In this document: positions 1-16,444 of the stretch, piece after piece
How the letters are laid out: every line of letters starts with the position of its first letter
Numbering within the stretch: the stretch's first letter is position 1
Source of the DNA: Parapedobacter luteus
GTDB taxonomy: Bacteria > Bacteroidota > Bacteroidia > Sphingobacteriales > Sphingobacteriaceae
Assembly: GCF_900168055.1 (NCBI RefSeq)
Contig: NZ_FUYS01000003.1
Location: forward strand, 372,001 to 436,000
Direction of reading: 5' to 3'
DNA length: 64,000 nt
Translations under genes and position numbers: made by a program
Notes under the pieces: generated by a model
Seen by the model: the letters and a program-made list of their open reading frames with translations, nothing else
The model's database searches: none
Told to the model about the DNA's origin: nothing

Positions 1-1352
1 AAGCGGTATCGGTCGGTACGGACAGCCCTCCCCAATCGGCCGCCCCTTGGGAAACTGTGGTAAGCATGATCGCGGATATGACTTCCGGGGTCTTTGAGCA
101 CGGGCACCATGCTGACTCCATCGATCGGCTGCCGGACATCCGGTGCTGGCAGTCCGGCGAGTTCCACCAATGTCGGGTAAATATCGACCGTTTCCGACAG
201 CTGATCGGTATGCGAGCCCGCACGGGTGACGCCCGGAGCCGATATGACCAGCGGAATACGGTTAGCCAATTCATAATTGACATGTTTGGTCCACATCCCC
301 ATCTCCCCAAGCATATAGCCATGGTCGCCCCAAAGCACTACGATCGTATTATCATCGAGCCCGAGCGCCGCCAGTTCATTCAACACCTTGCCAATTTGAG
401 CATCGACGTAGCTAACACCCGCGTAATAACCATGAATCAGCTTACGCGTGAGGCTATCCGGAAACGGTGCCTCAGTCACGGTCGTTGGGATCGGCACATA
501 CTGGTCGATTTCGTCGCCATATTTCACGGCATACGACGGCGCTCCCTCCGGCCGTACGTTGTGTTGCGGCAGAGGGAGCGCGCTTTCGTTATACATATCC
601 CAGTACTTTTTCGGCACCGAAAAAGGAAGGTGTGGCCGGGCAAAACCGACAGCAAGGAAAAAGGGGCGATCCGCATTCACTTTCCGGTCCCTAAGCCGCT
701 CGATGGCCCGATTCGCGATACGCCCATCCGCATAAGCATCATCGGCAACGTCCGGTGATTCCCAAGCCGATCCCCTGGGCAGCGATCGGGCGTATCCCCA
801 CTCCATATTGGAAAACAAGGCCTCTTCACGCGTAAACCCGTCTTTTTTACTGACCGAATCCACATACTCGATGACCAAATCCTTATGATGCGGCACACTC
901 CAGGAGGCGGTATCGTCATACGTATTGTGCCCCACATGAAACACCTTGCCCATTGATTCCGAGTGATAGCCGTGTTGCTTGAAATACTGCGGCAATGTCA
1001 CCGCATCGGGGTAATGGTCGCGACAATCACTCCCGAAGTTATAAATTCCTGATGAGGTAGATCGGCTACCGAGCAAGAGGTTGTACCGGGAAGGGCCGCA
1101 AACGGCTTGGTTGGCATACGCCCGTTCAAACAGCAGGCTTTTTGAAGCCAGCTTATCCATGTTGGGCGTAAAGGCGATGGTGTCTCCATAGGCTCCGAGC
1201 GCAGGGCGCAGGTCGTCAACGAGGATTAGCAGGATGTTGGGCTTTTCCGTTTTATGTGCCGCAGTACAGGAAATGCCAAGCCAAAAGCCGACAATGGCGC
1301 ATACCGTTATCCATTTGGCGTATCCGTGTCCTGGCTTATGATTACGTATCAT
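1..1352 (-). CDS. Sulfatase, iduronate-2-sulfatase-like (C-terminus off left edge)
   Basis: Predicted exported sulfatase that removes sulfate esters from a carbohydrate. The 450 visible codons start with a lipoprotein-like N-terminus (hydrophobic stretch ending GISC near residue 29), then VDDLRPALGAYGD, the metal-binding start of the alkaline phosphatase fold. The sulfatase signature CGPSR follows, with Cys85 as the residue normally converted to formylglycine. Later come MGKVFH, GFARPHLPF and WGDHGYMLGEMGMW. The set fits the iduronate-2-sulfatase branch better than arylsulfatases. The frame is still open at base 1 at the RAVRTDRYR block, so perhaps 30-60 residues are missing. It is the last visible gene of the SusC/SusD cluster but lies 317 bases beyond the DUF3823 gene, with a hairpin between. 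The family is clear; the substrate is not. Confidence 0.9.
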   Translation of the reverse strand, partial: MIRNHKPGHGYAKWITVCAIVGFWLGISCTAAHKTEKPNILLILVDDLRPALGAYGDTIAFTPNMDKLASKSLLFERAYANQAVCGPSRYNLLLGSRSTSSGIYNFGSDCRDHYPDAVTLPQYFKQHGYHSESMGKVFHVGHNTYDDTASWSVPHHKDLVIEYVDSVSKKDGFTREEALFSNMEWGYARSLPRGSAWESPDVADDAYADGRIANRAIERLRDRKVNADRPFFLAVGFARPHLPFSVPKKYWDMYNESALPLPQHNVRPEGAPSYAVKYGDEIDQYVPIPTTVTEAPFPDSLTRKLIHGYYAGVSYVDAQIGKVLNELAALGLDDNTIVVLWGDHGYMLGEMGMWTKHVNYELANRIPLVISAPGVTRAGSHTDQLSETVDIYPTLVELAGLPAPDVRQPIDGVSMVPVLKDPGSHIRDHAYHSFPRGGRLGRAVRTDRYR

Positions 1353-1429
1353 TATAGTAATTTGTTTTAGCTAAGTCTCCATGACGCGTGTTGTCTGTAA
1401 AGCTACAAAACATGAACGTTGTACCACGA

Positions 1430-1540
1430 CTAATTCAAGAGCTTCAGCAATTCCATTTCGAAGTTGCTCTCGCTAGGCCGGTAAAAATCGTCACCAAACA
1501 CCAGGGCAATAATCGGCAAGATAATGAAAATTACTTTCAT
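1430..1540 (-). CDS. Possible small protein, 36 residues
   Basis: An ATG-initiated 36-codon frame lies in the gap between the DUF3823 gene and the sulfatase, on the same strand. It begins with a hydrophobic segment (MKVIFIILPIIALVFGDDF) and ends with an acidic, leucine-rich tail (SNFEMELLKLLN). This could be a short membrane peptide, the relic of a longer gene, or chance. The ribosome-binding region is poor (only GAG near the start). I do not recognise it. Confidence 0.25.
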   Translation of the reverse strand: MKVIFIILPIIALVFGDDFYRPSESNFEMELLKLLN

Positions 1541-1618
1541 AGCTCATTATTTTTTGTATGTCAACAGGTGGGCATTTTTGCGCCGTACGTGCATATTCCA
1601 TCTGCCGATATAAAGGTA

Positions 1619-1649
1619 ACCGCTATCGCCCATTTTTGACGATAGCGGT
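1619..1649 (-). terminator. Hairpin after DUF3823 gene, possible terminator
   Basis: A perfect 10-bp inverted repeat (ACCGCTATCG / CGATAGCGGT) around an 11-base loop begins about 20 bases past the DUF3823 stop codon. Reading the minus strand, only a weak CTTTAT tract follows. It may terminate or attenuate transcription before the sulfatase, or act as a 3' stabilising end for the susC-susD-DUF3823 message. Confidence 0.5.
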
Positions 1650-1669
1650 AAAATCATAAGAACGAATAA

Positions 1670-2344
1670 TCATCGCAATTGAACCACCTGCGAATAAATC
1701 GCCTGATCCTTACCCGCAGGGCGCAATCCTACTCGGGCGAACAAGGCCCGGCCCGAATTGAAGTCGGCATTATTCGTCAGGTCAAGTGATCCGGTGATGG
1801 TGCTTCCCTCGGTCACGTCATTGATATCGAGCCGGGCAGTGTACGACACATCATCGACGAAGGACGTTTTGCCCACCAAAATCATCACATATTCAATGTC
1901 CCTGCCACCTGCTACTTCGTTGATTTGAAACGAAGCATTCGCGCTACTACCACTCAGCGACAGCTGTACATTGGACAAGGTATAAAACGGCGTAACCGGC
2001 ACATCCACGTTGGCCGTACCCCTTAAATTCACTATCGTCGTATCACGGTCATTCACCCACGGGCCGTTGTTATCCCGGGTAACCAGTTTGTATTCGCCAT
2101 CAAATACTCTTGCCTCAAAGGTACCATCTTGCCCCACGTAAACCGGAATAGGGTTGCGCAACTCGTATCCATCTTGGTATAGCTGAAGCTGGACCGCCTC
2201 ACCTGTACCACGTACCCCGATAGGCTCGCCATTGTAGACCACACGTCCATATATCGTCGACTCCGGCGCATCATAATTATCCAGTCCGCAACTGCTTACC
2301 GCAACGACCGCGGGAAACAGTAACATATTTAAATATCTTCTCAT
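1670..2344 (-). CDS. DUF3823-type outer-surface lipoprotein
   Basis: A 224-residue lipoprotein (lipobox near VAVSSC, Cys19). Its first half (residues 30-115) resembles a carboxypeptidase-regulatory beta-sandwich: YGRVVYNGEPIGVRGTGE, then DGTFEARVFDGEYKL. A second beta-rich half follows. This layout matches the DUF3823 proteins encoded directly after susD in many Bacteroidota, thought to be surface glycan-binding accessory proteins. It starts 17 bases after susD, so the two are almost certainly co-transcribed. It has no catalytic motif. A binding role is inferred from position. Confidence 0.8.
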   Translation of the reverse strand: MRRYLNMLLFPAVVAVSSCGLDNYDAPESTIYGRVVYNGEPIGVRGTGEAVQLQLYQDGYELRNPIPVYVGQDGTFEARVFDGEYKLVTRDNNGPWVNDRDTTIVNLRGTANVDVPVTPFYTLSNVQLSLSGSSANASFQINEVAGGRDIEYVMILVGKTSFVDDVSYTARLDINDVTEGSTITGSLDLTNNADFNSGRALFARVGLRPAGKDQAIYSQVVQLR

Positions 2345-2361
2345 TGTCTTTCAAATAAAAT

Positions 2362-4194
2362 TTACTGAAACGGATTTAATACAATCTTCGGGTTTGCGTT
2401 TTGCCACGCCAGGTCGATGAAGTTATAGTAATTTCTTAATTCAAAGAATCGTGGATGCAACGAGTTGCTAAACGTCAACCTGTCGAACACATATTTGCCA
2501 TCATTCGGTGTACCGGGAGCGACCACCAGGTAGGGAAACAATGCCCAATGCTGGGCCGTTGGGCTATTGACTACGCCATTCCATACAATATGGGCCCGGC
2601 GCCAACGCTTCAAATCCCAATACCGATGATCCTCGAATGCAAACTCCACCCGGCGCTCCTGTATGATATCATCCAACGTCACGGAGGTTAACGGCTGTAT
2701 GCCAGCACGCTCGCGTACTTGGTTGATGTAACCAACCGCTACTGGCTGCTGACCCAATTCCATCGCAGCTTCGGCAGCAATCAGCAACGCTTCGGCAAAA
2801 CGGAAGCGGGGGAACCACATCTCGCTGTTGCGTCCGCGGGTGGACGCCCCGGCCGCCTCGTCCAAGAATTTACGGAAGAAAAAGCCGGTTTTGTTGATGT
2901 ATTGCTCATTAGAGCGGTTGGGGCCATTGGATGAGGTAATCAAACGCCCTTGCCCATCACGTTCTCCAGGTTGTCCTGCAATGGTTTGCCAAGCACCATT
3001 GCTCCAGACTTTCTGACCTGCCTGCAACTCAACAGGCGTTCCTTTAAATACCGCATTGGGGGTGATAACAGAACCGCCCAACCTGGCGTCCTTATTTGCG
3101 AACGCATCAGCCGGATCGTCATAGAAAATATAGTTCCCTTGATTGTCCCGGATTTGGATCGAGCCATCCCTATTATTTACATATTCGAAATCCTCGACCA
3201 GATTGAGTATCGGGCCTGCAGCAGCACGATCGATATCCTCGGCGTGTGACCCTGGGATATTCTGTGTGGTAAAGCCAACGGTCTGTCCCGGATAACGGTA
3301 ATCTCTTGCCCAAATCACTTCCGTATTATTATCCTTGACACTTGTCGCCTCATAAAAATTGCGCTCCAAATCGTCAGGTTTGTTTAGTTGAAGCTGATAC
3401 GGGCTGTTGTTAATCACTTCTTGTGCCGCTGCTAATGCTTGTTGGTAATATCCTTCCGCGTGTTCAGCCGAAATCCCTACTTCGCCACCAGCTGTGCGAA
3501 TTGGGCTACTCATCTTATTGTTATAATTCGCTAATGATCCCGCATAGATGGCCGCACGGGCCTTTAACATCAAAGCAGTCCATTTATTTGCCCTTGCAGA
3601 ATTGATGGTCTTTTCCTCATCGAGCATGGCGGATACTGCGTCACATTCTTCAATGATGTAGTCATATATCCCCGCCTCAGTGGAACGCGGATATTGCAAC
3701 GTTGTGATGTCCATACCACCTTGATAGTCGAACACCTCATCACCTACGATCGGCATGCCTCCCAAACCACGAGCCATATTGAAATAGGTCCATGCCCGAA
3801 GAAACCTGACTTCTCCTTCGTATACCTGCTTCTCAGTATCAGTTATTACCGTAGTGGCGCGGAGGCTTTGAAGAAACTGGTTAATGTTACGGATTAACGT
3901 GTAATCATATACCCGCCATTGGGCATTATCGTAATTCTGAATATTATCTGGCCCACCATCGGACTTACCGGCTTCATCTAATACCGTGTACTGATACCAG
4001 TCGCCGATATGTTGGCTCCAGGTTACACGACCATAAAAGTTAGCCAACACCGATTCGATCATGATGGCATCACTAAATACCTGATCATCGGTAAGAATTT
4101 CGTCGGGTTCGCGTTCAAGGAAATCTGAACAGCTACTGACGCATGTCAGTCCCCCGGCCAACAACAATACGTTGAATATGCTTGACTTTTTCAT
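2362..4194 (-). CDS. SusD/RagB family glycan-binding lipoprotein
   Basis: A 610-residue SusD homologue that caps the SusC transporter on the outer membrane and captures oligosaccharide. It has a lipoprotein signal with Cys22 (TCVSSC), the conserved N-terminal region SDFLEREPDEILTDDQVF, TPR-like helices with FLRAWTYFNMARGLGGMPIV around residues 130-150, and the SusD C-terminal part with ERRVEFAFEDHRYWDLKRW. It lies 31 bases after susC and 17 before the DUF3823 gene. Length is at the upper end of the family. Ligand specificity cannot be read from sequence. Confidence 0.93.
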   Translation of the reverse strand: MKKSSIFNVLLLAGGLTCVSSCSDFLEREPDEILTDDQVFSDAIMIESVLANFYGRVTWSQHIGDWYQYTVLDEAGKSDGGPDNIQNYDNAQWRVYDYTLIRNINQFLQSLRATTVITDTEKQVYEGEVRFLRAWTYFNMARGLGGMPIVGDEVFDYQGGMDITTLQYPRSTEAGIYDYIIEECDAVSAMLDEEKTINSARANKWTALMLKARAAIYAGSLANYNNKMSSPIRTAGGEVGISAEHAEGYYQQALAAAQEVINNSPYQLQLNKPDDLERNFYEATSVKDNNTEVIWARDYRYPGQTVGFTTQNIPGSHAEDIDRAAAGPILNLVEDFEYVNNRDGSIQIRDNQGNYIFYDDPADAFANKDARLGGSVITPNAVFKGTPVELQAGQKVWSNGAWQTIAGQPGERDGQGRLITSSNGPNRSNEQYINKTGFFFRKFLDEAAGASTRGRNSEMWFPRFRFAEALLIAAEAAMELGQQPVAVGYINQVRERAGIQPLTSVTLDDIIQERRVEFAFEDHRYWDLKRWRRAHIVWNGVVNSPTAQHWALFPYLVVAPGTPNDGKYVFDRLTFSNSLHPRFFELRNYYNFIDLAWQNANPKIVLNPFQ

Positions 4195-4225
4195 AATGAT
4201 TGCTTTCTTAAAAAATGTTCAACTA

Positions 4226-7200
4226 CTAGAATCTGACATTAAGTCCAAAATTCAGAATCCGTAAAGTAGGATATCCCAATCCGTTAGTAGCATCCATTTC
4301 AGGGTCGATGCCAATCAGATTGGTTAATGTAAATAGGTTCTGGCCGGAAAAATACACCCGAACGCCCGTAAGGGAAAGTGGCTCTAAAACGCTCGACGGC
4401 AATGAATAACCGAAATCCAGATTGCGGAGTTTGATATACCGAATGCTCTGTTTCCAAAAATCGCTGTTCCAGTAATTGCTATGCGCACTATTGCCGATCA
4501 GGGGCATCGGGTACTTACCGGGAACCAACTCACTGTTGGCATCCCAGATATCGGACAGTTTCCATGCATCATCGAAGTAGTATTGCGGATTGTTTCCTCC
4601 ATCATGGAACGGGTTACGCATTTCCCATTCTTTATAATAGGTAAACATGCCACCACCCGAGAAATCTAGAGCCAAATCGAACCCTTTGTAAGTGAATGAA
4701 AAATTCAATCCGAAATTGAGGGCGGGTGTTTCGTTTTGGCGATAGCCAATTGGACGCTCGTCCAACCCGTTGATTACACCATCTCCGTTGAGATCTTTAT
4801 ACTTGATATCGCCGGGGCGCAAGGTACGGTTACCCTGCCGATCATTATCAATCGGCCAGCTGGCAATTTCCTCCCAGCTTTGAAATTGCCCATCAGACTG
4901 TAACCCCCAGTTCAGATGGCCAAAGCGCTGTACAATCGAGTTTCTATATACGTCCCACGAGTTGCTGAAACGCGGTTTGTAGCGATCCCAGTCATAAAAC
5001 CGGGAGTACGTAACGTTACCTCCCAATGAGTAAGTCAACTCACCTGCCCGATCGCTCCAGCGTACCATTGCTTCATAACCGCGGTGCATATCAGAGTTCA
5101 GGTTCTCGTTGGGTAACCCGAATCCAACTTCGTTTGGCAACAGCACATCATATCGTGCTGCTGGTAACCCGGTACGCTTACGTTGGAAAACTTCGACAGT
5201 AGTCGTCAATCGGTTACGGAGGAATGCGGCGTCGAAACCGATGTTGGCTATCTCCGCTCGCAACCAGGATAGCGTCGTTACTGGAAGTCCTCGAGGTTGT
5301 GTACCAACAACATAGCGCCCGTCAATGACCGATGAAGACACGTTCACCCAGTCGCCATTCGCATTCCTATATCGTTTATAATTGTAACCACTCATGTAGT
5401 CGAAGGGGTTATATCCAGGCGTGTTGTCATCGCCAACCAAACCAAATGACCCTCTCAATTTGAAATAGTTAACCACGCTCCCCAGCTTACTGTCTTTCCA
5501 AAATGACTCTTCGGAAGCCACCCAGCCACCCGTCACTCCAGGAAAGAAACCCCAGCGATCATTGGGCGGGAATTTCCAAGACCCGTCATAACGCCCGATA
5601 AACTCTATTAAGTATTTGCCTGCATAATCATAATTGACTTTTCCAATGTATCCGATTCGTGCCTGTGGATTCTCACCCACATCATCATAGGTATCCATGG
5701 TTTCATAGTCGATCAAATTCAATGCATTGGAAGTCGGTATCGAGTGTACCCATGTAGTCGGTTCCTTTCTTAGTATGGTCTCCACACCACCAACTACTGC
5801 GAGATTATGGTTGTTGAATGACTTGACATAGTTCAATTGCACGTTGGACGTCATTTCTTCCTTGTGGCCCATACGACGCTCGCGCCACGGGTTGTTGTTC
5901 TCGAATATTACAGGATACGTGTCAGTAGCTTCGTCATAGCCATATAGTTTATACGTATACTCGTGGTTATCCAACCGCTGATTTTCGAAAAAGTAACCGA
6001 CGAGCGCCCTTGCGGTTAGTCCATCGAGGATATCATATGAAGCATCAAAATTTAACTGAGCCACACGTTTTGTATCCTGGAACTTACCGGATAAGTCGTA
6101 GGTCAGCCAACCGAAATTAGTGCCTGGGTCATTCGACGTCAGTGTGGGATATTCGGGGTTATCGTTCGCAAATGGGCGCACCGTGGGCAAGTTGCGGAAT
6201 GTGCCGAAGCGGGGCAGCCACAGGTCGTCGCCTCCAGGCACACCAGGGTTTACTTTTTGTTGGTGCCGTGCATTGAAAGTCATCCCTACGCGAAAGCGTT
6301 CAGAAATATCTGATGTAATACCCATTTGGACATTTGTCCGTTTGAAACCACCGTAATTTACAATGACGTCGTTCTGATTAAGATGGCCCAAGCTGAAATA
6401 GTAGTTGATTTTGTCTGATCCACCTGAGACGTTAGCATTAAGATAAGCTTGCGGAGAGGTTTCCCAAATGTAATCATACCAGTCAAACGGCACATAACCT
6501 TTCTCCGTACCTTGGCGCCATTTCTCCAAATCCTCGGCATCATAACGATAATTAGTCGCCCCTTGTACGGTTTCGGATTGGATGTAATTCTCGACGTAGG
6601 TCACTGCATCCGCTGGCTTTGGAAATGTAGATAAATTCTGAAATCCATAGTTTGATGTCAAGCTGATGGTGTTTTTTGTGTTTTGTCTGCCCCGTTTAGT
6701 CGTCACAACAATAACGCCGTTGGCCGCTCGCACTCCATAAATCGCTGCGGAGGCATCTTTCAAAACAGAAATGGATTCAATATCATTGAAATCCAAGTTA
6801 TTGAATTGTTCGGCGTCTTTTTGCACGCCGTCGATAACGTATAGGGGGCTGCCCATGTTACGAATTTGGATGTTGGTGGTCGCACCGGGCCGTCCATCCG
6901 TTTGCCGGAAATTCAAACCAGGGATTTTGCCGACTAAGGCACCTGACGTAGTTGATGCCAGTGAACGACTGATGTCCTCCGCATTTATCGTTGATATTGA
7001 ACCTGTCAATGATGCCTTCTTCTGCGTCAAGCCGAACCCCGTCACCACCACTTCTTCCAGCGACTCGGACGATGACGTGAGCGCTATTGACACCGTGTTC
7101 TGCGAGGCTTCCACAGCAACCCGTGCTTCCTCATACCCGAGGAAGTAGACCAACAGGGAGTCGCTCCCCGAAGCCACTTCAATGGAAAAAGTCCCGTCCG

Positions 7201-7366
7201 CTCCCGAGGAAGTGGTTCGCTGGCTACTCTGCACCCGAATGGTCGCTCCGCCAATCGGTGATTGATCCGCCGCATCCCTTACCGTCCCCGTGATGGAGCG
7301 GGTTTGGGCCATTGCTATGGATAGTCCAACGCACCATAGCAACGATACAAGTAAAGCTTTACTCAT
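4226..7366 (-). CDS. SusC/RagA family TonB-dependent outer-membrane transporter
   Basis: A 1046-residue TonB-dependent receptor importing oligosaccharides across the outer membrane. A signal peptide (residues 1-20) is followed by a carboxypeptidase-regulatory-like domain (about 23-100, ITGTVRDAADQSPIGGATI). Next are the SusC signature SLEEVVVTGFG (about 103-113), the plug domain with IRNMGSPLYVIDGV and ISVLKDASAAIYGVRAANGV, and a 22-strand barrel ending ILNFGLNVRF with terminal aromatic Phe. It pairs with the SusD gene 31 bases downstream. Two hairpins and a 22-base motif shared with the GH2 gene leader lie just upstream. Confidence 0.95.
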   Translation of the reverse strand: MSKALLVSLLWCVGLSIAMAQTRSITGTVRDAADQSPIGGATIRVQSSQRTTSSGADGTFSIEVASGSDSLLVYFLGYEEARVAVEASQNTVSIALTSSSESLEEVVVTGFGLTQKKASLTGSISTINAEDISRSLASTTSGALVGKIPGLNFRQTDGRPGATTNIQIRNMGSPLYVIDGVQKDAEQFNNLDFNDIESISVLKDASAAIYGVRAANGVIVVTTKRGRQNTKNTISLTSNYGFQNLSTFPKPADAVTYVENYIQSETVQGATNYRYDAEDLEKWRQGTEKGYVPFDWYDYIWETSPQAYLNANVSGGSDKINYYFSLGHLNQNDVIVNYGGFKRTNVQMGITSDISERFRVGMTFNARHQQKVNPGVPGGDDLWLPRFGTFRNLPTVRPFANDNPEYPTLTSNDPGTNFGWLTYDLSGKFQDTKRVAQLNFDASYDILDGLTARALVGYFFENQRLDNHEYTYKLYGYDEATDTYPVIFENNNPWRERRMGHKEEMTSNVQLNYVKSFNNHNLAVVGGVETILRKEPTTWVHSIPTSNALNLIDYETMDTYDDVGENPQARIGYIGKVNYDYAGKYLIEFIGRYDGSWKFPPNDRWGFFPGVTGGWVASEESFWKDSKLGSVVNYFKLRGSFGLVGDDNTPGYNPFDYMSGYNYKRYRNANGDWVNVSSSVIDGRYVVGTQPRGLPVTTLSWLRAEIANIGFDAAFLRNRLTTTVEVFQRKRTGLPAARYDVLLPNEVGFGLPNENLNSDMHRGYEAMVRWSDRAGELTYSLGGNVTYSRFYDWDRYKPRFSNSWDVYRNSIVQRFGHLNWGLQSDGQFQSWEEIASWPIDNDRQGNRTLRPGDIKYKDLNGDGVINGLDERPIGYRQNETPALNFGLNFSFTYKGFDLALDFSGGGMFTYYKEWEMRNPFHDGGNNPQYYFDDAWKLSDIWDANSELVPGKYPMPLIGNSAHSNYWNSDFWKQSIRYIKLRNLDFGYSLPSSVLEPLSLTGVRVYFSGQNLFTLTNLIGIDPEMDATNGLGYPTLRILNFGLNVRF

Positions 7367-7376
7367 AATTGTTTTG

Positions 7377-7398
7377 TTTTAATTGTTTATAACTGTAT
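7377..7398 (-). promoter_or_regulatory. Leader motif shared with GH2 gene
   Basis: Read on the minus strand, ATACAGTTATAAACA followed by ATTAAAA lies 11-32 bases before the susC start codon. The same 22 positions, with a single difference, precede the GH2 gene (32755-32776). The match is too long for chance in two leaders, so a shared regulator site or translation-enhancing A-rich leader is likely. Confidence 0.5.
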
Positions 7399-7405
7399 TG
7401 GTCAA

Positions 7406-7434: not shown

Positions 7435-7440
7435 CAAAAT

Positions 7441-7496: not shown

Positions 7497-8705
7497 TCAA
7501 CGCAGTAACGCCATGCCAAATCCAGGCGCAGCAGGTGGAATCAGCTCACCGTCTTTAATCGTATATCCACTGAGATCCACGTCATCTGATGTACTCGTGA
7601 CACCCTCGATTGTTACGGTATTCCCAAGGCCTCCAGCCAAATGGGCCGTATAGTAAGATTTCAACAACGAGCCCCAAGCATGGGGCGATGCTTGCACCTT
7701 ATATTGAACCAACTTCGGCATGAGCTTCCGCCAATTGGTGAATCCAAGCCCCTCGATATCGGTAAGGTGGACATCCATGAGCTTTTGCTGCATCAATTCG
7801 TCGAGCAGCGCTGGATCGGGGTCGGCTTCACCATCGGCAAGCAGGCTTTTGACATTTGCCCGGCTCATCCAGTCGCGCAATTTCCGGTAGTCGTCAACGG
7901 TTTCGTGAAAAGGCTCTTCGATCCAGAACAGTGGAATGTTACCGATTCCCTTGAGGTATTCGATAAACTCGTGAACGGTGAAGCCGTTGTTGCCGTCTAC
8001 CAAAATATCGCAGTCGGGAAACGCCGCCGCGACGGCCTTCGTCACCTCAACATCCCGTGCCAGTCCGTCTTTGTACGACATCCACCGGTGGCCGCGCCCG
8101 ATCTTCAGTTTGAACTGCCGGTAGCCGTAGTCGTAGTCGTAGCGGCAGTTAGCAAGCACCTGGTCGATTCCCCCCGGCGCGTGGGCGGGCTCCAGGTCGT
8201 CGAAGTAAATCATGCCGCTGTAATACTTCGTGGTAAACGGCTGCTCACGGCCCAACAAGGCGTATACGGGCTTATTAAGCACAACCCCGGCCAAATCGTG
8301 CAACGCCATATCGAATGGGAGATAACGCTCGTCCGTAATGCCCATGGCTACCTGAAACACATCCGAGAGTTTCTTTCCTACCAGCTCCGGCACGACACGT
8401 TGCGCCCCGCCACGGCCACCGCGAAGTGATGCCCAGCCCTTAGCACCCCGGTCTGTCGTGATGATGCAGATCTCATTTCTTATGCCATACCCATGTAGAT
8501 CGAGCCGGGCGTTCTTCCCGACAAGCCGGGGGTATTGCAACCGTACGTCGCCAAACGTGATCGATTGAATGGTGTGATAAGCAAGTTCATCCTGCATACG
8601 TGCAGATTGGCCGTCCATGAAGAGCGCTGCAAGTGATGGCTTTGCTACCAAGCTCAATGCAGCCCCCGCATTCAGTGCATGGATAAATTTTCTTCTGTTC
8701 ATCAT
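7497..8705 (-). CDS. Enolase-superfamily enzyme (mandelate racemase/muconate lactonizing type), exported
   Basis: A 402-residue enzyme of the enolase superfamily, which abstracts a proton next to a carboxylate (acid-sugar dehydratases, racemases, cycloisomerases). The N-terminus MNRRKFIHALNAGAALSLV looks like a Tat-type signal, so the protein is probably exported. Catalytic positions fit the superfamily: K199-x-K201, D237-x-N239 for Mg2+, E263 and E293 as further metal ligands, D316 and H342 (SPHAW) as acid/base. The His/Asp pair suggests an acid-sugar dehydratase or epimerase rather than a classical muconate enzyme. It lies between the MFS transporter and susC. Substrate unknown; a uronic or aldonic acid from the glycan is an inference. 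Confidence 0.8.
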   Translation of the reverse strand: MMNRRKFIHALNAGAALSLVAKPSLAALFMDGQSARMQDELAYHTIQSITFGDVRLQYPRLVGKNARLDLHGYGIRNEICIITTDRGAKGWASLRGGRGGAQRVVPELVGKKLSDVFQVAMGITDERYLPFDMALHDLAGVVLNKPVYALLGREQPFTTKYYSGMIYFDDLEPAHAPGGIDQVLANCRYDYDYGYRQFKLKIGRGHRWMSYKDGLARDVEVTKAVAAAFPDCDILVDGNNGFTVHEFIEYLKGIGNIPLFWIEEPFHETVDDYRKLRDWMSRANVKSLLADGEADPDPALLDELMQQKLMDVHLTDIEGLGFTNWRKLMPKLVQYKVQASPHAWGSLLKSYYTAHLAGGLGNTVTIEGVTSTSDDVDLSGYTIKDGELIPPAAPGFGMALLR

Positions 8706-8756: not shown

Positions 8757-10304
8757 TTAATGAAAACTTTCCGGTGGGTCTTCAAGGACGACGGGTTTAT
8801 ATCCTCCCTGCGCCCTGAAGTACAGGACAAGTCCGAGATAAAATAGAAACATAAACATCGGCAGTATCGACACGGTAGATAGTGCCGATTTTTTTGCTTC
8901 GTTCTCCACGCCGGCGATGATGTCCAGCGTCTCCGTGTCTGCCTGCGACAGTTTTTCTTGGTTTAAGGATTTATACTCGCCAAAGATGCTCCGCTTAACC
9001 TCCGTAACATACTCGCTGTAATAGGTGGTATGGTGCTCCAGGTCGTATGCCTGTAGTGTCGAATCGATTTCGCTATCCTGCACGGCTCCCAAAAAAACGG
9101 CGCCGATAATGCCTACGCCTAACTGCCCCACCGCACTGGTGATGTTCAGCGCCAAAGCACCGCCCCGGGGGAACTGCTCGGACACCACGCCCAACATGGT
9201 GCCCCACAGGTAAGTCTTGCCCACGGCGTAAAATCCCGCTGCCAGCAAAATAGTGGCTCCTGCCGAAAAAGATAGCCACTGTAAGCCTACCGCTGATACC
9301 AACGCGCTGATCGCAAGGATGCCTAAGGGCGACATACGCTTGGTGACCACCCCTGTATAGAGGCGGAGCACGGTCATGATGATCGCGGTAAACACCAATA
9401 CCCATCCACCCTGAAAACCGAGCTTCTGCATTTCCGGCGTCATGAGGTCTGTGATCCAGCTATCCGTACCCAATTCCATCGTAGCCAAGGGCACCATGAC
9501 AAGCAGCAGCACGACCAACAGCGGCCTGCCCAATGCTTTCAGGTAAAATCCCACAAACGCCACTACAACGACAATGACCAGCAAACTGACCGCCGTACCC
9601 CAACCCAGCAAATTACCCAATTCGAAGGCGCATAGGCTCGTAATGATGAGAAACCCCAATACGCCCACTTCCCGAAGCATGTCGATATATCTCACGCCCG
9701 CTTTTACACGCTCATTGACCGGAAAATGTGCATTGAATATCAATGCACCGTACGCCATTGTAGGCAACAGAATAAACAACATCATGATCCGCCAGTCGAC
9801 CTCGAGGTGGAGCAGCGTGATCCCAAACAGGCCGGCGATGGCGATGCCCATCGGCCACCCGGCATGCAGGATATTCAGCCATTTGGTCTTTTCCCGCGGA
9901 TACATACTGGCCACCACCGGATTGATGACAGCCTCGGCGGCTCCATTGCCCAGCGCAAACAGGAATGTACCGAAATAAAGCATCCAGTAACCGTTGGCGA
10001 AAATGGTCAGCAAGACGGAAGCTGCGTGGCAGATGAACGCAAAAATCATGGACTTTTTATAACCGATCTGATCAATCACTAGGCTGAACAAAACAATGCT
10101 CAACGCAAATGGCCAGAAACTGACCCCAAAAATCTGTCCCTGCTGGGTCTTGCTCAGGTCAAAGCGGATGCCCCACTCATGCATCAGGTATGAGCGGAAT
10201 ACAAACCCGAAGGCTGAAGCGACCAACACCATGAAGCATCCCCAGAAAAGTGTTTTGCTGGGTGTCTCCGGGTGCTGGGCGTTTTGTATGGTTGTAGGAC
10301 TCAT
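8757..10304 (-). CDS. MFS transporter, sugar-type
   Basis: A 515-residue inner-membrane permease with about 12 hydrophobic segments. The first half carries FGVSFWPFALSIVLFSLVID and YFGTFLFALGNGAAEAVINP, typical of Bacteroidota sugar:proton MFS carriers. A long soluble stretch (about residues 430-475) separates the last two helices. It begins 4 bases after the epimerase gene, so translation is likely coupled. It probably imports the mono- or disaccharide released in the periplasm. Confidence 0.85.
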   Translation of the reverse strand: MSPTTIQNAQHPETPSKTLFWGCFMVLVASAFGFVFRSYLMHEWGIRFDLSKTQQGQIFGVSFWPFALSIVLFSLVIDQIGYKKSMIFAFICHAASVLLTIFANGYWMLYFGTFLFALGNGAAEAVINPVVASMYPREKTKWLNILHAGWPMGIAIAGLFGITLLHLEVDWRIMMLFILLPTMAYGALIFNAHFPVNERVKAGVRYIDMLREVGVLGFLIITSLCAFELGNLLGWGTAVSLLVIVVVVAFVGFYLKALGRPLLVVLLLVMVPLATMELGTDSWITDLMTPEMQKLGFQGGWVLVFTAIIMTVLRLYTGVVTKRMSPLGILAISALVSAVGLQWLSFSAGATILLAAGFYAVGKTYLWGTMLGVVSEQFPRGGALALNITSAVGQLGVGIIGAVFLGAVQDSEIDSTLQAYDLEHHTTYYSEYVTEVKRSIFGEYKSLNQEKLSQADTETLDIIAGVENEAKKSALSTVSILPMFMFLFYLGLVLYFRAQGGYKPVVLEDPPESFH

Positions 10305-10308
10305 CAGG

Positions 10309-11157
10309 TTAAGCGGTAAATGTTTTCTTCAGGAAAGCAAATCCTTCTTCGGCCAGTTCGTCGGCACTGGCGGCCAACGGTCTCCATATGCTGGCCGCTC
10401 TCGCCAATTCTTTGGATGGCGCACCAAACGTTTCGATAACCAAGCTACCCTGGTAACCAATGGTCTGGAGTGCATCGCAGATACCGACCCAGTCGAGGTG
10501 GCCTGTGCCGGGTGTACCCCGGTCGTTTTCGTTGGCTTGGATATGGGCCAACCGGCTACCCAGTTTGATAATGCTTGCCGGAATATTTTTTTCTTCGATA
10601 TTGCTGTGGAAGGTGTCCAGGAGGATCTTCAGCTGGGCACTCCCCACCTCATCCACGAGCGCTATGGCTTGGTCAACCGTGTTAACCATATCGGTTTCAA
10701 ATCGATTTAGTGGCTCCAACGCCAAGGTCACACCGAGCGCCTCGGCACGCTGCACCGCTTGGTACAGGTTATCGAGGCACCACTGGCGTTCTTGCTGTTT
10801 CTGTCTCTCTGGAACCAACCGCGTCTTGCCCACGGCTGAGTATAATGGTCCGCCGAATAGCGGGCTTTCCAATTCGCTGGCGATTTCGAGGCAATCGATG
10901 ATATAGGAAAGCCCGTTGGCCCGGATCTCGGGCAGTTCATTGGAAATATCGCGGTCCATGCCAAACGCGCCGCTGACGGTGACGCTCAGGTCCATTTCCC
11001 GGCAGGTTTTCCTTAAAACAGCCCAATCGATCAATTCCCGATCTTCCACAGCAATCTCGATAACATCATAGCCGATGTCTTTGGCTTTGCGCAAGATGTC
11101 AAACGACGCCGTTGAAAACGGTGAAACCCAAACAAACGTGCTTATTCCTATATTCAT
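10309..11157 (-). CDS. TIM-barrel sugar isomerase/epimerase
   Basis: A 282-residue protein of the xylose-isomerase-like TIM-barrel family (AP endonuclease 2 fold), closest in look to D-tagatose/D-psicose 3-epimerases. The four metal-ligand blocks are visible: LALEPLNRFE (Glu), KILLDTFHSN (Asp), HIQANENDRGTPGTGHLDW (His and downstream residues) and LVIETFG (Glu). It is cytoplasmic with no signal peptide. Packed between the oxidoreductase (20 bases) and the MFS gene (4 bases), it probably epimerises or isomerises a keto-sugar intermediate. Confidence 0.85.
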   Translation of the reverse strand: MNIGISTFVWVSPFSTASFDILRKAKDIGYDVIEIAVEDRELIDWAVLRKTCREMDLSVTVSGAFGMDRDISNELPEIRANGLSYIIDCLEIASELESPLFGGPLYSAVGKTRLVPERQKQQERQWCLDNLYQAVQRAEALGVTLALEPLNRFETDMVNTVDQAIALVDEVGSAQLKILLDTFHSNIEEKNIPASIIKLGSRLAHIQANENDRGTPGTGHLDWVGICDALQTIGYQGSLVIETFGAPSKELARAASIWRPLAASADELAEEGFAFLKKTFTA

Positions 11158-11177
11158 CGTAACAAACCAACATTAGA

Positions 11178-12287
11178 TTATTCAAAACTTGGCACTTCAA
11201 TACGGACACCGCCCTTCATGGCCGACTCATGGGCGCATATTCCTGCGCAGGTGTAGTTGGCGGCCAATGCTGCATCCACGGCAGAATCCCGCCCTTCCAC
11301 GATAGCCGCTACAAACTCCTGCACCAGATGCGGATGCGAACCGCCATGACCTGCTCCCTGCAAAAAGGACACGTGGTTGGGGTCATCAATCCGCTCGCGC
11401 TTCGTGAAGTCCGCAATTTCCGGAATCAGCAGTTCATCCGTGTCGGGCACATCCAGCCGCTGGGCATTTTCACCGCCATCAAAGACCGCGTGGCCCTCGT
11501 CCTGGAGCTGTTCCCATTCAAAGGACATCTTGGTACCGTAAACATCGTAACTCTCCCGATACTGCCGCACCACGTCAAACAACGAACGGGTTGCCTCTGC
11601 CACTACATCGGAACCTTTCAGCTTGAACGTGGCAGTTTCCACGGCATAAGGTGCATTATACCGGCTGGCTAAATCATCGGAAAGTCGACCGGAACCATGG
11701 CAAACCACGGATTCCGCAATGGTGTTATTGATGCGCAGTAACGGGGATATCGCATGGGTACCGTTGAGCATCGGGGGATAGCCCTTCCAATATTCAGCCC
11801 ACCCTTCCATGCTCATGTCTTGGATGTGCGACCCGCGGACAAATTGGATTTTACCCAGCTGGCCGCTTTCCGCAAGTTTCAATCCGTAAAGAAATTCCCG
11901 GGTGTAAAGTGCTGTTTCCATCATCATGTACACCTTCCCTGCACGGCGCTTGGCTTCCACAATGGCTTTGCAGTCTTCCACGGTCATCGCCATCGGTATG
12001 GTACAGGCCGTGTGTTTATTTGCATTCAACGACGCCAGCGTCATCCGGGCATGTTCGGGCACAGGCGTAACAATATGGATGGCATCCACGTCTTCCCGTT
12101 TCACCACTTCTTCGAAATCAGTGAAAACAAGGTTTTCGTCTAAGTTAAACTTCGCTTTCAGCTCGTTGAGCGTGTTTTCATTTCGCGTACAGATTCCGAC
12201 AGCTTTAATATTCGGATGCTTCTGATAAATGGGAATGAACTCTTTTCCAAAACCCATACCAACGATAACGACAGTGATTTTTGACAT
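11178..12287 (-). CDS. Gfo/Idh/MocA family oxidoreductase
   Basis: A 369-residue NAD(P)-dependent sugar or cyclitol dehydrogenase. An N-terminal Rossmann fold (VGMGFGKEFIPIYQKHP, then IHIVTPVPEH around residue 75) is followed by the alpha/beta substrate domain. No Tat signal is present, so it acts in the cytoplasm. It sits between ThuA and epimerase genes; the same trio occurs in pathways that oxidise a sugar hydroxyl to a keto group (for example C3 of glucosides). That pathway assignment is inference. Confidence 0.85.
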   Translation of the reverse strand: MSKITVVIVGMGFGKEFIPIYQKHPNIKAVGICTRNENTLNELKAKFNLDENLVFTDFEEVVKREDVDAIHIVTPVPEHARMTLASLNANKHTACTIPMAMTVEDCKAIVEAKRRAGKVYMMMETALYTREFLYGLKLAESGQLGKIQFVRGSHIQDMSMEGWAEYWKGYPPMLNGTHAISPLLRINNTIAESVVCHGSGRLSDDLASRYNAPYAVETATFKLKGSDVVAEATRSLFDVVRQYRESYDVYGTKMSFEWEQLQDEGHAVFDGGENAQRLDVPDTDELLIPEIADFTKRERIDDPNHVSFLQGAGHGGSHPHLVQEFVAAIVEGRDSAVDAALAANYTCAGICAHESAMKGGVRIEVPSFE

Positions 12288-12317
12288 ATTTGATTTTTAT
12301 TTAGCTGGTTATACTTG

Positions 12318-13043
12318 TTATTTGCTAGAAACCCAATTGACCGCATTGATTAGCAAGGTTTTGTAAGCCTCATGCTGATGACTATGCTCGTCATGCCCTA
12401 ACGTGATTCCTACGATTTTCGCCTTGGGATGCTTTACGGTATATACCACCGGATAGACCGCATCCGTTTCTTTTGACTGGCCGATAACCAGTACTTCAAT
12501 CCCCCTTGCGGCCGGGTCGGGAACGTGGCGATACAGTTCGTCCTGAAACTCGAATTTTTGAGCAACGCCCTGCGTAACGGGATGCGCGGGATTGACGACA
12601 TAGTTTTTAAATTCCTGGAATTTTTCGTGGCTCTTGCTGCCGCCGCCCACGTAATTCAGGTTGTACGCTGGCCAATCCTCCCAGTTATACCACACGGCGG
12701 CATGGAGCAGCAATAACCCCTTCCCCTTTTCGACAAATTTGGTAATGGCAGTCTGCCCCGTTGCATCGATGGGTTGATTGTTGGCCAGAATAAGGATATC
12801 GGTGCTTTTCAGATAGGCCGGTATAGCGTCCACCTGCTCGGTGTATGTTACTTGGTAGGCTCCCGTCGATTCAATCGTTTTTGCATCTTCCTCGCCGTAC
12901 CAACGACTAAAATCATGTGATCCGCCGCCGCCCACCATCAGTATCCGGAGCGGTTTGGTTTGAGCGAGCGCTGTGCCAACAGCCATCGCCATTAAGGTGA
13001 GGACTGCGAATAGCTTCATTGTGTGTTTCATCTTGATATACAT
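12318..13043 (-). CDS. ThuA-domain protein, secreted
   Basis: A 241-residue ThuA-like protein (glutamine amidotransferase-like fold). The signal peptide ends near GTALAQ. ILMVGGGGSHDF opens the fold, TDILILANNQPI and GKGLLLLHAAVWYN form the core, and IVGITLGHDEHSH ends it. ThuA proteins are linked to trehalose and other keto-sugar metabolism, although the reaction is not settled. It starts 14 bases after the large ThuA/PVC fusion. Starts at in-frame Met5 or Met9 are equally possible and leave the signal peptide intact. Confidence 0.85.
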   Translation of the reverse strand: MYIKMKHTMKLFAVLTLMAMAVGTALAQTKPLRILMVGGGGSHDFSRWYGEEDAKTIESTGAYQVTYTEQVDAIPAYLKSTDILILANNQPIDATGQTAITKFVEKGKGLLLLHAAVWYNWEDWPAYNLNYVGGGSKSHEKFQEFKNYVVNPAHPVTQGVAQKFEFQDELYRHVPDPAARGIEVLVIGQSKETDAVYPVVYTVKHPKAKIVGITLGHDEHSHQHEAYKTLLINAVNWVSSK

Positions 13044-13057
13044 TTTGTGTTCCTGAT

Positions 13058-16000
13058 TTACTTAATAACGCGCATAATCCCATTCATCCCCCGCCAGTGA
13101 CCCGGAAAGGTGCAGACATACGGGTAATCGCCGGGCTCCCTGGGTGCGGTAAATTCCAGCGTGAAGCTCTCGCCGGGATTTACCAATGGGGTATGGTGCA
13201 ATACTTCAGGAATCGCTGGCACGTACTGCCTGTCAAATGCTTCTGATGACCGCAGCATGTCGTCCGCCGCCTTGCCGACAATGTCCAACGTTCCGGGCCG
13301 GATGATTAACAGGTTATGCTGCATACCATCGGGATTTTCAAATACCAACGTGATTCGCTTACCCGCGGGAACCGTAATTAATTTCTTATCATACTGCATG
13401 ATGTCTTTGACCGCTTTTAGCTCGACACGCTCGGAGGGTATATGAGTGGCTGGGTCTACAGTCGCTGACATCCCCCGCTGAGCGTGTACAGCAGATTGTC
13501 GCGCTTTTGACAGTCTCAAGGAGATGTTATTGATATCACCTGTAAAACCCGATGGACCGCCGTAATCCGCAAAGGCATAAGCTTCATCAAAATCTTCGCC
13601 CGAGCGCAGGTTGAGCTGCAACGGCTCGGTAAACAAATGCATAACTTGCTGCTTGCCTTGGGTAGCCCCATTTACGGATAACTCAATCGAGGCATCTGCC
13701 GCCATCCGTGCCTCGGCCACAAACTTATCAGGCAGGAGGCCCCGTGAAGAAACGGTGGCCGTCTGGCCATGTTGATAGACCTCAAAAAACAGCCGGTTGT
13801 TTTTGACATAAAGCGCGTATCCCGCCGCCTTGTCTCCTTGTCCGACAATCAGCCCATTATAGGCTTGGTTATCACGCCTATGGATATCTGCTTGGATCTG
13901 GATTTCCTTATTTGAAACATCCGGCGAGAACGGGAAACGACTACGGCGCCCCAGCATGTACTGCTCATTGGCCAGCGATTCGAGGATTCGGTTGGCGAAA
14001 CTGCTGCCGGCTTGTGCAGGCGCCAGCTTAAAGAATGCATCTTCGTGCCGGGCAATCGCCGCAAACAGGGCTTGCGATAACCATCGGTCTGCTTCGTTGG
14101 CGGGATCATCTGTCGCTTCAAGCAGGGCCCTGGCAACGGCCTCCGAAGCAGGATATTCGGCCAGTTTTACAAACGCTGCCATGCGGGTATTCAGGTTGGT
14201 GTCTGCTAAGATCCCGCTATTCAGTAGTGCGTCGCGGGATCGATAGGCTACGGGAAGTACCTGGGCAGCCGCCTTCCGTACCCCCGCCGAAGGGTGTTTC
14301 AAGGCCTCCACTACGATATTGAATACGTCTTGCCGCTTATCAATAAGGTGTAATCCCTGCAACGTCCAAAGCGCATGGATAGCGGGGGCGTTCAGTCCGA
14401 TTTGGTCTACTTTTTGGTCGGACACAATCCGGATCAGTTCACCTGTTACGTCGTCGCGCTGCCGTTCCACCAATAGCCGCTGGGCATGCGTCCGCCAGAA
14501 TTTGTTGTCGCTCTTCAGTGCCTTCAGCAGGCCGCCCGTATCATCTTTCGAAAGCTTATGGAGAGCTTTATGTTTGCCGTCTTTATGCACCAACCGGTAA
14601 ACACGGCCGTATTTCTTATCGCGCAGGTCGCTTTCAAACGCATTTCCGGGACCATGCGGCTGCTCGACAAACGGCAACACCTTGTCTGAAGGCGCCTGCG
14701 CCGGCACGAATACATTATGTTGGATGATAAAGTTATACCAATCAAGTATCCAAACTGCACCGTCCGGGCCTACTTCTGCGTGAATAGGGCCAAACCATTC
14801 GTCCGAGCTGGCCACTAAGTTCCACCCATCGTGCTCTTTAAAACCGGCACCATCAGGCTCAATGAGAGCGTTGTGTACCAAGCGTACCGTCGGCTCTGTT
14901 ACAAAGGCAACCTTATTCCAGTATTTCTGAGGATAATCGCGCGCCGTGTAAAGCTGGTGCCCCGCAGCAGATGTGAAGCCACCGACTACATCCACCTGCC
15001 GAAGATTGGGTTGCATAGCATGCACATCATAATGCCCGTCGATTTTCTGCACCGCATTGACAGTAACCCTCCTACCGTCGTCCGTAAGCTGGCGCTGCAC
15101 CAGTTGTTCAGGCATGGAATAATATGCGCTATGTGTGTTGTTTGCGGTAGAAATAAATATGTTGTTGTCTTCAGTCATACCTAACCCCCATGTATTGTTG
15201 CTGGTGGTTGCCAGGTATTCGAAATCGGTACCGTCCGGTCTAAAGTGATACACGCCTTGGCCGAAGGCAAGCCGCCGACCATTGATATGGCCATCGAAGC
15301 CTGCATAGCCCGTGACACCCCAAATCTTATTATCAAACCCATACTGCAAGTTTGAAGGCCCGGCATGTGTGTCATTCTTATTCCAACCGGTCATGATGGT
15401 GTCCCGTAAGTCAACCACATCGTCTCCATCCGTGTCTTTCATGAAGATGAAGTGTGGGGCCATGGCCACAATCACACCATCGTTGGCAAACGTAAGGCTC
15501 GTGGCAATATTTAACCCATCAGCAAACACCGTAAACTTGTCGGCGATGCCATCGCCGTCCGTATCTTCGCATATTTTGATCCGGTCATTTGCTTCCCCTT
15601 TGAGCTCGACGAAATTATTGGGGTAATCGACAGTCTCAATGATCCATAACCGCCCTTTTTCATCCCAGCTCATTGCAATGGGATTTACGATATCCGGCTC
15701 TGCGGCAAATAGTTTTAGTTCGAAACCTACGGGGACCTGTATCAGTTTTTTCGATTCTTCAGGCGACAACGGTTCCTGCATTTTCGGCACAAAATGCCGA
15801 GCAGTGAAATCGGCAATTGTATCTTCATAGATGCTGACATCGGGAATCTGCAATTGTGCAACCAATCCCATTACCCGATCTCCTATCGCCCATTGCACGC
15901 CTTTGTTAACGGACCGGAGGAAATCCAGGCTTTTCCAGGTCTGCTCGTCATGGCCGCTGACTGTACAGTATACACGACCTTTTCCTTTATTAAACCGGTA

Positions 16001-16444
16001 TAGGGAATCAGTGGATACCTCCCTTGAGCCTGTATCGGCAACAGGTGCACTGCCATCAAGTGCCTTGGCGACCCATCGCGGTTGATTGGCACCAAGAAAC
16101 TGCCCACCAAGCACAACCAACCCCTTGCCACTATCTACGAACTTTTCCAGTGCGCGCTCCTGATCGGAAGAAATGGAATCCGGGAGCGTAAATAAAATTA
16201 CACCGTCATACAAATGCAGGTTTTCATCGTTTAAGTCTGCACGATCCGTTGTATAAGTAAGGTTAATGCCACTCTTGAAAAGTTCGATGGCCAACCAAGA
16301 CGCGTATTTGCCCGATACATCGGGCGCATCGGCGCTTTCCAAAAACAAGACTTCGGCTCTCCGTGGATAATTACGGTTGTCATGCGTACATTGGAAAAAA
16401 AACAGGCAGAAAAAGACAATATACAAGTAGGAAATTATTCTCAT
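13058..16444 (-). CDS. ThuA / PVC-type propeller / LamG-like / cupredoxin fusion lipoprotein
   Basis: A 1128-residue exported lipoprotein (FFFQC near residue 19). Domains in order: ThuA-like (about 28-200, GKGLVVLGG); a PVC-type dehydrogenase beta-propeller (about 235-610, GRLWIIETVDYPNNF, CEDTDGDGIADKFTVFADGL); a HEAT-like helical part (about 625-790); a LamG-like beta sandwich (about 800-975); and a C-terminal azurin-like cupredoxin. Apparent copper ligands are His1043, Cys1111, His1116 and Met1120, with azurin spacing C-x4-H-x3-M. Many PVC-propeller proteins end in a CxxCH haem c domain; none is present here, so copper may carry the electrons. It is the first gene of the minus-strand cluster and its promoter faces the AraC gene. 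An extracytoplasmic sugar dehydrogenase is the likely role, not proven. Confidence 0.8.
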   Translation of the reverse strand: MRIISYLYIVFFCLFFFQCTHDNRNYPRRAEVLFLESADAPDVSGKYASWLAIELFKSGINLTYTTDRADLNDENLHLYDGVILFTLPDSISSDQERALEKFVDSGKGLVVLGGQFLGANQPRWVAKALDGSAPVADTGSREVSTDSLYRFNKGKGRVYCTVSGHDEQTWKSLDFLRSVNKGVQWAIGDRVMGLVAQLQIPDVSIYEDTIADFTARHFVPKMQEPLSPEESKKLIQVPVGFELKLFAAEPDIVNPIAMSWDEKGRLWIIETVDYPNNFVELKGEANDRIKICEDTDGDGIADKFTVFADGLNIATSLTFANDGVIVAMAPHFIFMKDTDGDDVVDLRDTIMTGWNKNDTHAGPSNLQYGFDNKIWGVTGYAGFDGHINGRRLAFGQGVYHFRPDGTDFEYLATTSNNTWGLGMTEDNNIFISTANNTHSAYYSMPEQLVQRQLTDDGRRVTVNAVQKIDGHYDVHAMQPNLRQVDVVGGFTSAAGHQLYTARDYPQKYWNKVAFVTEPTVRLVHNALIEPDGAGFKEHDGWNLVASSDEWFGPIHAEVGPDGAVWILDWYNFIIQHNVFVPAQAPSDKVLPFVEQPHGPGNAFESDLRDKKYGRVYRLVHKDGKHKALHKLSKDDTGGLLKALKSDNKFWRTHAQRLLVERQRDDVTGELIRIVSDQKVDQIGLNAPAIHALWTLQGLHLIDKRQDVFNIVVEALKHPSAGVRKAAAQVLPVAYRSRDALLNSGILADTNLNTRMAAFVKLAEYPASEAVARALLEATDDPANEADRWLSQALFAAIARHEDAFFKLAPAQAGSSFANRILESLANEQYMLGRRSRFPFSPDVSNKEIQIQADIHRRDNQAYNGLIVGQGDKAAGYALYVKNNRLFFEVYQHGQTATVSSRGLLPDKFVAEARMAADASIELSVNGATQGKQQVMHLFTEPLQLNLRSGEDFDEAYAFADYGGPSGFTGDINNISLRLSKARQSAVHAQRGMSATVDPATHIPSERVELKAVKDIMQYDKKLITVPAGKRITLVFENPDGMQHNLLIIRPGTLDIVGKAADDMLRSSEAFDRQYVPAIPEVLHHTPLVNPGESFTLEFTAPREPGDYPYVCTFPGHWRGMNGIMRVIK

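Follow-up and report, generated by a model that had tools for sequence, protein, structure and literature searches.

The trehalose utilization (Thu) genes combine ThuA with a Gfo/Idh protein, and a 2024 Nature paper is said to deal with the breakdown of glycans by 3-keto chemistry. The glycoside deglycosylation operon of Agrobacterium encodes GlycDH, OGE, HYD, and Gfo and is described as proceeding by oxidation, elimination, hydration, and reduction (PMC10628242). A LacABC/DUF1080 route through 3-keto-lactose has been proposed for Caulobacter, and a Pedobacter is mentioned as having a putative dehydrogenase (PMC9007349). We analyzed a 64,000-nucleotide stretch (the window) of the 4.83-Mb genome of Parapedobacter luteus, in which a ThuA-DUF7133-cupredoxin fusion protein (FUS) is encoded together with a TIM-barrel protein (TIM) and a Gfo/Idh/MocA protein (GFO). 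No study of a ThuA-DUF7133-cupredoxin unit was found among the literature matches listed, as judged from titles and the starts of abstracts. The reading that we favor, with a probability of about 0.5, is that of a mixed glycan locus, wherein ordinary glycan-degrading parts are combined with a conserved redox cassette that would process one released sugar or side chain.

Analysis of open reading frames together with Pfam and NCBIfam matches bears out the ten minus-strand genes between positions 1 and 16,444 and the families that the initial annotation had assigned to them. The leftmost is an S1-type sulfatase gene (1..1352) that is open at the window edge and whose full-length product has 513 amino acids (L009:2311-3852), followed by genes for a DUF3823 protein (1670..2344; PF12866, PF18003), SusD (2362..4194; PF07980), and SusC (4226..7366; TIGR04056, 736 bits, above the cut-off). 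The initial annotation had seen no recognizable glycoside hydrolase, had proposed that oxidation takes the place of hydrolysis, and had named hydrolases just left of the window as a finding that would speak against this idea. The first statement holds for all ten window proteins scanned but not for the contig, where the gene run continues beyond the left edge with a full-length BD-FAE-like esterase (L009:1388-2239; PF20434, E 9.2e-27) and a GH43 protein (L009:285-1391; PF04616, E 9.9e-53, profile positions 1-287 of 288), both encoded on the same strand as the sulfatase. The esterase gene starts 71 bp past the end of the sulfatase gene, the GH43 gene overlaps the esterase gene by 4 bp, and a HerA-like helicase gene comes next. 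Precisely the hydrolases named beforehand are therefore present, and the contrast of oxidation instead of hydrolases is wrong for this genome.

On the right side, beyond a divergent AraC-family regulator gene (16576..17478, plus strand; PF12833, PF07883), lie three GH43 genes (17472..20745, minus strand) that belong to an adjoining SusC/D locus, with a further SusD gene and a further SusC gene. By gene content, the locus thus unites a SusC/SusD pair with CAZymes, as a hydrolytic PUL does. Because GH43, esterase, and sulfatase genes stand at its ends, the description that fits is that of a putatively hydrolytic locus with a built-in redox cassette, in which oxidation would occur alongside hydrolases.

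Comparison with related loci revealed both constant and variable parts of this arrangement. The end of a GH43-like gene adjoins the end of the AraC gene in all seven Parapedobacter-type clusters (the window, L011, and L013-L017), and an MFS gene is found in three of them (the window, L011, and L016). The tail that follows DUF3823 comprises sulfatase, esterase, and GH43 genes in this genome; in L011 the locus stops after sulfatase and esterase genes. In L013-L017 (five of the seven clusters), the 3.7-4.3 kb examined beyond DUF3823 contain no GH43-like gene; sulfatase-like genes occur in this tail on the same strand in L015 and L017, and one lies on the opposite strand in L013. In P. composti (L012), enolase, sulfatase, esterase, and GH43 genes are found together and the redox genes are absent from that place. 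DUF3823 and the sulfatase-esterase-GH43 tail, between which lie 317 bp with a hairpin, may or may not be transcribed jointly. Counts of promoter-like sites (19 observed versus 22.0 in shuffled sequences) and terminator-like sites (19 observed versus 17.2) were uninformative.

The main object of interest is, in our view, the redox unit, which is real and more widely spread than the window locus. At E ≤ 1e-60, GFO is found in seven of 295 genomes of the class, and the DUF7133 propeller of FUS is found in the identical seven, which span five genera and four families; the chance of such identical sets is 2.8e-14 when kinship is ignored. GFO lies within 3 kb of the propeller at all eight propeller places and at eight of nine GFO places. 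TIM is present in each of these eight units, and a divergent AraC gene in seven, the eighth unit running into a contig end. The ninth GFO place, a paralogous MFS plus Gfo/Idh pair in this genome, adjoins its MFS gene and clusters with genes for a SusC-like protein, a PQQ-type propeller-cytochrome c, and a tandem 3-keto-disaccharide hydrolase. One GFO copy is 17 kb away from the nearest DUF7133 gene. BLAST searches with the window proteins (9-20 kb per unit) revealed no relatives of SusC, SusD, the enolase-superfamily protein, or MFS in six of the seven other units; in the seventh, which is this genome's second copy (L124), SusC-like genes lie beyond AraC. The conserved unit proper, as neighbors were compared with the window's proteins, consists of AraC, FUS, TIM, and GFO only.

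A further 10 genomes were chosen by way of their enolase loci (seven Parapedobacter and three Sphingobacteriaceae, one of the latter already known to carry FUS). GFO and the propeller are both present in eight of these and both missing from two (the genomes of L018 and L025). Every GFO match (14/14) adjoins a propeller match, and three of the 17 propeller matches have no GFO match nearby. A window-like pair occurs in six of the seven Parapedobacter genomes and a more distant pair (about 50% and 63% identity) in all seven. The earlier proposal that the redox and epimerase genes belong together is therefore upheld, since they are conserved together elsewhere in the class and since, in this genome, the paralogous MFS and Gfo/Idh pair clusters with a SusC-like gene and a tandem 3-keto-disaccharide hydrolase gene. 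The instinct that they form a module of the keto-sugar kind was partly right. The redox cassette appears to have been recruited into the glycan locus.

The MFS transporter gene (8757..10304; PF07690) is preceded on the left by that of the enolase-superfamily dehydratase-like protein (7497..8705; PF13378), which has a twin-arginine-like leader. Its best PDB match is 3n4f (E 5.3e-47), and the nearest solved structures, 3n4f and 3v5c, are presumably galacturonate dehydratases. The KxK, Asp/Glu/Glu, and His positions, which we take to be functional residues of uronate dehydratases of this superfamily, align with 3n4f and are invariant in all 65 sequences compared, which come from the window and from 64 of the 77 loci; no NCBIfam equivalog cut-off is reached. 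Since this protein was found at E ≤ 1e-60 in only this one of the 295 class genomes, a wider scan of genome contigs was used; its nearest relatives are in seven Parapedobacter species (80-85% identity). We had considered this enzyme as a core member of the cassette and rejected it, because FUS lies near it in only two of 38 non-Parapedobacter Sphingobacteriaceae loci (L041 and L042) within the stretch examined and because the L018 and L025 genomes lack GFO and the propeller. PMC6353982 mentions galacturonate dehydratases from Geobacillus and Microscilla. The sulfatase has as its nearest solved relative 6hhm, listed as an endo-2-sulfo-D-xylose sulfatase in PMC9096561. These two kinships make the sulfated or acidic substrate proposed in the initial annotation plausible.

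TIM (10309..11157; PF01261, E 7.7e-40) has its nearest kin among the D-tagatose/D-psicose 3-epimerases, with the D-tagatose 3-epimerase 7erm as its best PDB match (E 1e-39), and scores 181.7 bits against a cut-off of 300 for the NCBIfam psicose 3-epimerase equivalog. A Glu/Asp/His/Glu site, which we take to be the metal site of ketose 3-epimerases, is complete in 15 of 16 TIM proteins including that of the window; L152 has F for H.

It is possible, though unlikely, that the locus is a hydrolytic one for a sulfated, acylated, xylose/arabinose-rich glycan, whose redox genes would only recover a monosaccharide by oxidizing an aldose to an aldonate that is then dehydrated, as happens in oxidative sugar-acid pathways. 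The GH43 and esterase genes at the left and the three GH43 genes at the right would suit this, as would the nearest relatives of the sulfatase and of the enolase-superfamily protein, the latter presumably being galacturonate dehydratases. A DUF7133-cytochrome c gene elsewhere in this genome, which speaks for the favored mixed-locus reading as well, stands beside genes for a KDPG aldolase, a DGOK kinase, and a sugar-acid-dehydratase-type (MR_MLE) protein. However, monosaccharide salvage fits poorly with a conserved unit that, by comparison of its neighbors with the window's proteins, holds AraC, FUS, TIM, and GFO only, and the ketose epimerase kinship of TIM is better matched by keto-sugars than by aldonates.

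GFO (11178..12287) has as its best PDB matches DgpA1 and DgpA, presumably glycoside 3-oxidases. Its EKP motif, whose lysine we take to be catalytic in Gfo/Idh/MocA dehydrogenases, is replaced by TIP, and all 17 unit-type GFO proteins read TIP or TVP. Among 10 other Gfo/Idh proteins compared, nine have (E/Q)KP; the exception, at 32% identity, reads AVP. GFO stays below the cut-off for the BT_2159-type Gfo/Idh disaccharide 3-dehydrogenase (24.9 versus 650 bits), and none of the window proteins reaches the NCBIfam cut-off of a 3-keto-glycoside family. The DUF1080/3-keto-disaccharide hydrolase domain (PF06439) has 10 matches in the genome and none in the window or its contig. Keto formation and elimination are steps that we infer, because no such cut-off is reached and DUF1080 is missing from the window; judged by the features tested, the locus does not belong to the DUF1080 type.

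The model of the initial annotation, in which oxidation to a keto-sugar and elimination would open the glycosidic bond itself, is improbable. It draws on the likeness of GFO to DgpA1 and DgpA, presumably glycoside 3-oxidases, on the clustering of GFO and MFS paralogues with DUF1080, and on clusters L013-L017, with no GH43-like gene in the 3.7-4.3 kb after DUF3823. The gene kinds are likewise similar to those of the Agrobacterium operon (PMC10628242). Nevertheless, hydrolases stand at both ends of the locus, the window is devoid of DUF1080, and TIM and GFO have no export signal, so that only imported pieces could be their targets.

FUS (13058..16444), a probable lipoprotein whose Cys19 is invariant (9/9), comprises a decayed ThuA domain (Pfam 57-117), a DUF7133 propeller (227-622), HEAT-like helices (about 630-830), a beta-rich region with no Pfam match (about 840-990), and a C-terminal cupredoxin (1007-1126; PF00127, E 1.1e-11) that the initial annotation had not reported. 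Two relatives have a CARDB match. Pfam scans of four other units show a near-complete fused ThuA in each (e.g. 4-209 of 209), with no stand-alone ThuA relative seen alongside. Of the ThuA profile, the window FUS retains only positions 29-90 and 174-209; among seven window-like copies, the middle block of ThuA is missing in six and the HxA motif in all seven, and a full ThuA gene adjoins FUS in every one (in the window, a stand-alone ThuA at 12318..13043; PF06283, E 4.7e-28; best PDB match 4jqs). Because the fused domain has decayed while a full gene sits next door, it looks as if ThuA function was handed over from the fused domain to the separate gene. The leaders of the proteins, as read by eye from their starts, are lipoprotein-like for FUS and the sulfatase and of an exported kind for ThuA, the esterase, and GH43; none was seen on TIM or GFO. 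The compartments assigned below are predicted from these readings.

The propeller is named DUF7133 (unknown function) in Pfam and Piru_Ver_Nterm ('PVC-type heme-binding') in NCBIfam, and DUF7133, as the latter name suggests, is presumably common in PVC bacteria. We selected 26 multidomain DUF7133 proteins whose match to the propeller spans at least 250 residues. Each carries an electron-carrier motif, either cupredoxin copper (16) or CXXCH heme c (10), none having both or neither; since seven of the 16 copper-type proteins are close orthologues, the copper cases are not independent events. L148 and L149 are DUF7133 proteins with CXXCH that fall below the 250-residue selection. A scan of five proteins with a single domain gave matches to both DUF7133 and GSDH in four (L092, L094, L100, and L103), which show no carrier domain in Pfam, and no match in the fifth. 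For L147, a DUF7133-cytochrome c protein, the GSDH match (2.3e-5) narrowly misses the cut-off. The copper-type profile (A6) matches the GSDH-like profile (A5) with a probability of 99.5% (E 1.4e-22, 321 columns), and A5 in turn matches soluble quinoprotein GDH entries (E 6e-18). FUS itself has no PF07995 match, and searching profile A1 against PDB gave repeat-propeller matches only, none to a sugar dehydrogenase.

Since the model of full-length FUS was of too low quality for a structure search, the propeller was modeled by itself, giving a middling model (pLDDT 60, pTM 0.67). With VIA-align, the best 13 rows (six proteins) are all PQQ or glucose dehydrogenases, led by the AA12 protein 6h7t (Z 20.2, rmsd 3.4, 265 aligned), and HHIP, which we take to be a non-enzyme, is among the near matches (Z 17.9). 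With Foldseek, PQQ/glucose dehydrogenases fill the first four rows and megalin the fifth, with TM-scores below 0.5. DUF7133 is thus related to GSDH/AA12 through sequence intermediates, and the likeness in fold is that predicted by a middling model.

In the copper-type propellers (four rows of alignment A3), two features of the GSDH-like proteins are replaced: the 'RN' motif arginine and the loop HGSWNR, whose arginines are presumably PQQ-site residues. The 'RN' arginine is kept in four of six heme-type rows. A histidine, which we take to be the active-site His of GSDH-like enzymes, stands at that position or one column off in all 14 rows of A3 and is also aligned in the A6-A5 comparison. PQQ binding by the copper-type propellers is doubtful because the arginines of the PQQ site are absent. 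A PqqE search of this genome reached 46 bits (cut-off 381), and weak matches were also obtained in all 14 control genomes. That the propeller has no catalytic role and FUS is a lipoprotein for binding or scaffolding whose copper domain handles metal could be argued from the missing arginines, the HHIP match, and the CARDB matches, but is very improbable given a copper or heme carrier motif in 26 of 26 proteins and the conserved position of the active-site His.

The gene content, the co-conservation, the homology of DUF7133 to GSDH/AA12, and the tethered carrier motifs are the observations on which the mixed-locus reading builds, and from them we infer an electron flow, a substrate, a cofactor, and an order of steps. 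The GH43 proteins, the esterase, and the sulfatase would strip and cut the glycan, with SusC/D binding and importing it. The cassette of AraC, FUS, ThuA, TIM, and GFO would then process one released sugar or side chain. The FUS propeller would oxidize a sugar or glycoside in the periplasm and hand the electrons to the fused cupredoxin, from which they would enter respiration. Exported ThuA and, at this locus, the exported enolase-superfamily enzyme may isomerize or dehydrate the product, which MFS would import. In the cytosol, TIM may epimerize or eliminate, and an NAD(H) step by GFO would yield a normal sugar. We therefore read FUS as a putative periplasmic sugar dehydrogenase that would feed cytosolic epimerase and Gfo/Idh steps.

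This simple dehydrogenase reading is weakened by the lack of the PQQ-site arginines in the copper type and of the EKP lysine in GFO. A tentative and rather unlikely extension is that the locus encodes a new keto-sugar pathway, with an extracytosolic, blue-copper-wired propeller that binds its cofactor in a non-classical manner and with the EKP-less GFO acting with TIM as an NAD-dependent eliminase or epimerizing enzyme. If this were true, DUF7133 would constitute a large, so far unassigned class of respiratory sugar oxidases, adding a respiratory, copper-wired route to the known oxidative sugar pathways. The GSDH/AA12 link, the interchangeable copper and heme carriers, and the co-conserved epimerase and Gfo/Idh partners make the anonymous DUF7133 a testable oxidoreductase.

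Several known systems share parts of this arrangement, the Agrobacterium operon and the LacABC/DUF1080 route being the closest that have been worked out. FUS is like the PQQ sugar dehydrogenases of AA12 and GSDH in its propeller fold, in its sequence kinship through intermediates, and in the position of the active-site His, but differs in having no PF07995 match and, as a copper-type protein, no PQQ arginines. In gene content, the combination of ThuA with a Gfo/Idh protein resembles the Thu genes, whereas the ThuA encoded here has a signal peptide and is accompanied by a decayed, fused copy. As in the LacABC/DUF1080 route, sugar oxidation is proposed to take place outside the cytosol, there too in a member of the Bacteroidota; in contrast, neither DUF1080 nor a LacABC-like match turned up in the Pfam scan of the ten window proteins. 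By gene kinds, an oxidase, TIM-barrel isomerase-like protein(s), and a Gfo/Idh reductase occur together both here and in the Agrobacterium operon, whose isomerase-like proteins we take to have the TIM-barrel fold. This locus differs from that operon in that it encodes one TIM barrel only, its GFO lacks EKP, and its genes stand in a SusC/D context; the place of the operon's oxidase, GlycDH, is taken by a DUF7133 propeller fused to a cupredoxin.

The interval between the DUF3823 gene and the sulfatase gene of the window holds two small features. The first is a minus-strand frame of ~36 codons (window positions 1431-1540), the start of which resembles that of a thioredoxin-like gene of 517 amino acids found at the matching place (L011:17091-18644) in a Parapedobacter-type cluster that carries a sulfatase and an esterase after DUF3823. 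The short frame looks like the remnant of a deletion. The second, located after the DUF3823 stop, is a perfect hairpin of 10 bp (1619-1649) that is possibly a terminator or attenuator ahead of the sulfatase and the genes following it, and it was absent from the output of a terminator scan.

A sulfatase relative was found near the enolase gene (range L062-L080) in 12 of the 32 enolase loci from outside the Sphingobacteriaceae, as judged from the DNA stretch around each locus, and the one in L063 exhibits 54% identity to the window sulfatase. For the Gfo/Idh/MocA family, the protein of locus L121 (32% identity) carries AVP at the EKP position and perhaps represents an intermediate subfamily.

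Three further clusters reside elsewhere in this genome. One (L126:4459-18305) comprises an MFS gene, a paralogue of the window Gfo/Idh/MocA protein, and a SusC-like gene, plus genes for a PQQ propeller-cytochrome c dehydrogenase and a tandem 3-keto-disaccharide hydrolase. Another (L125:289-12091) encodes two FAD oxidoreductases, CstA, a DUF7133-cytochrome c protein, KDPG aldolase, an MR_MLE protein, 2-keto-3-deoxygalactonate kinase, and a Gfo/Idh protein, a gene content resembling that of an oxidative sugar-acid route whose dehydrogenase is of the DUF7133 type. The third (L141:216-8000) contains DUF7133-cytochrome c, whose GDSL match falls below the GDSL cut-off, together with ThuA, a relative (42%) of the window TIM-barrel protein, MFS, and a SusC-like gene, and resembles the window cluster as its haem counterpart.
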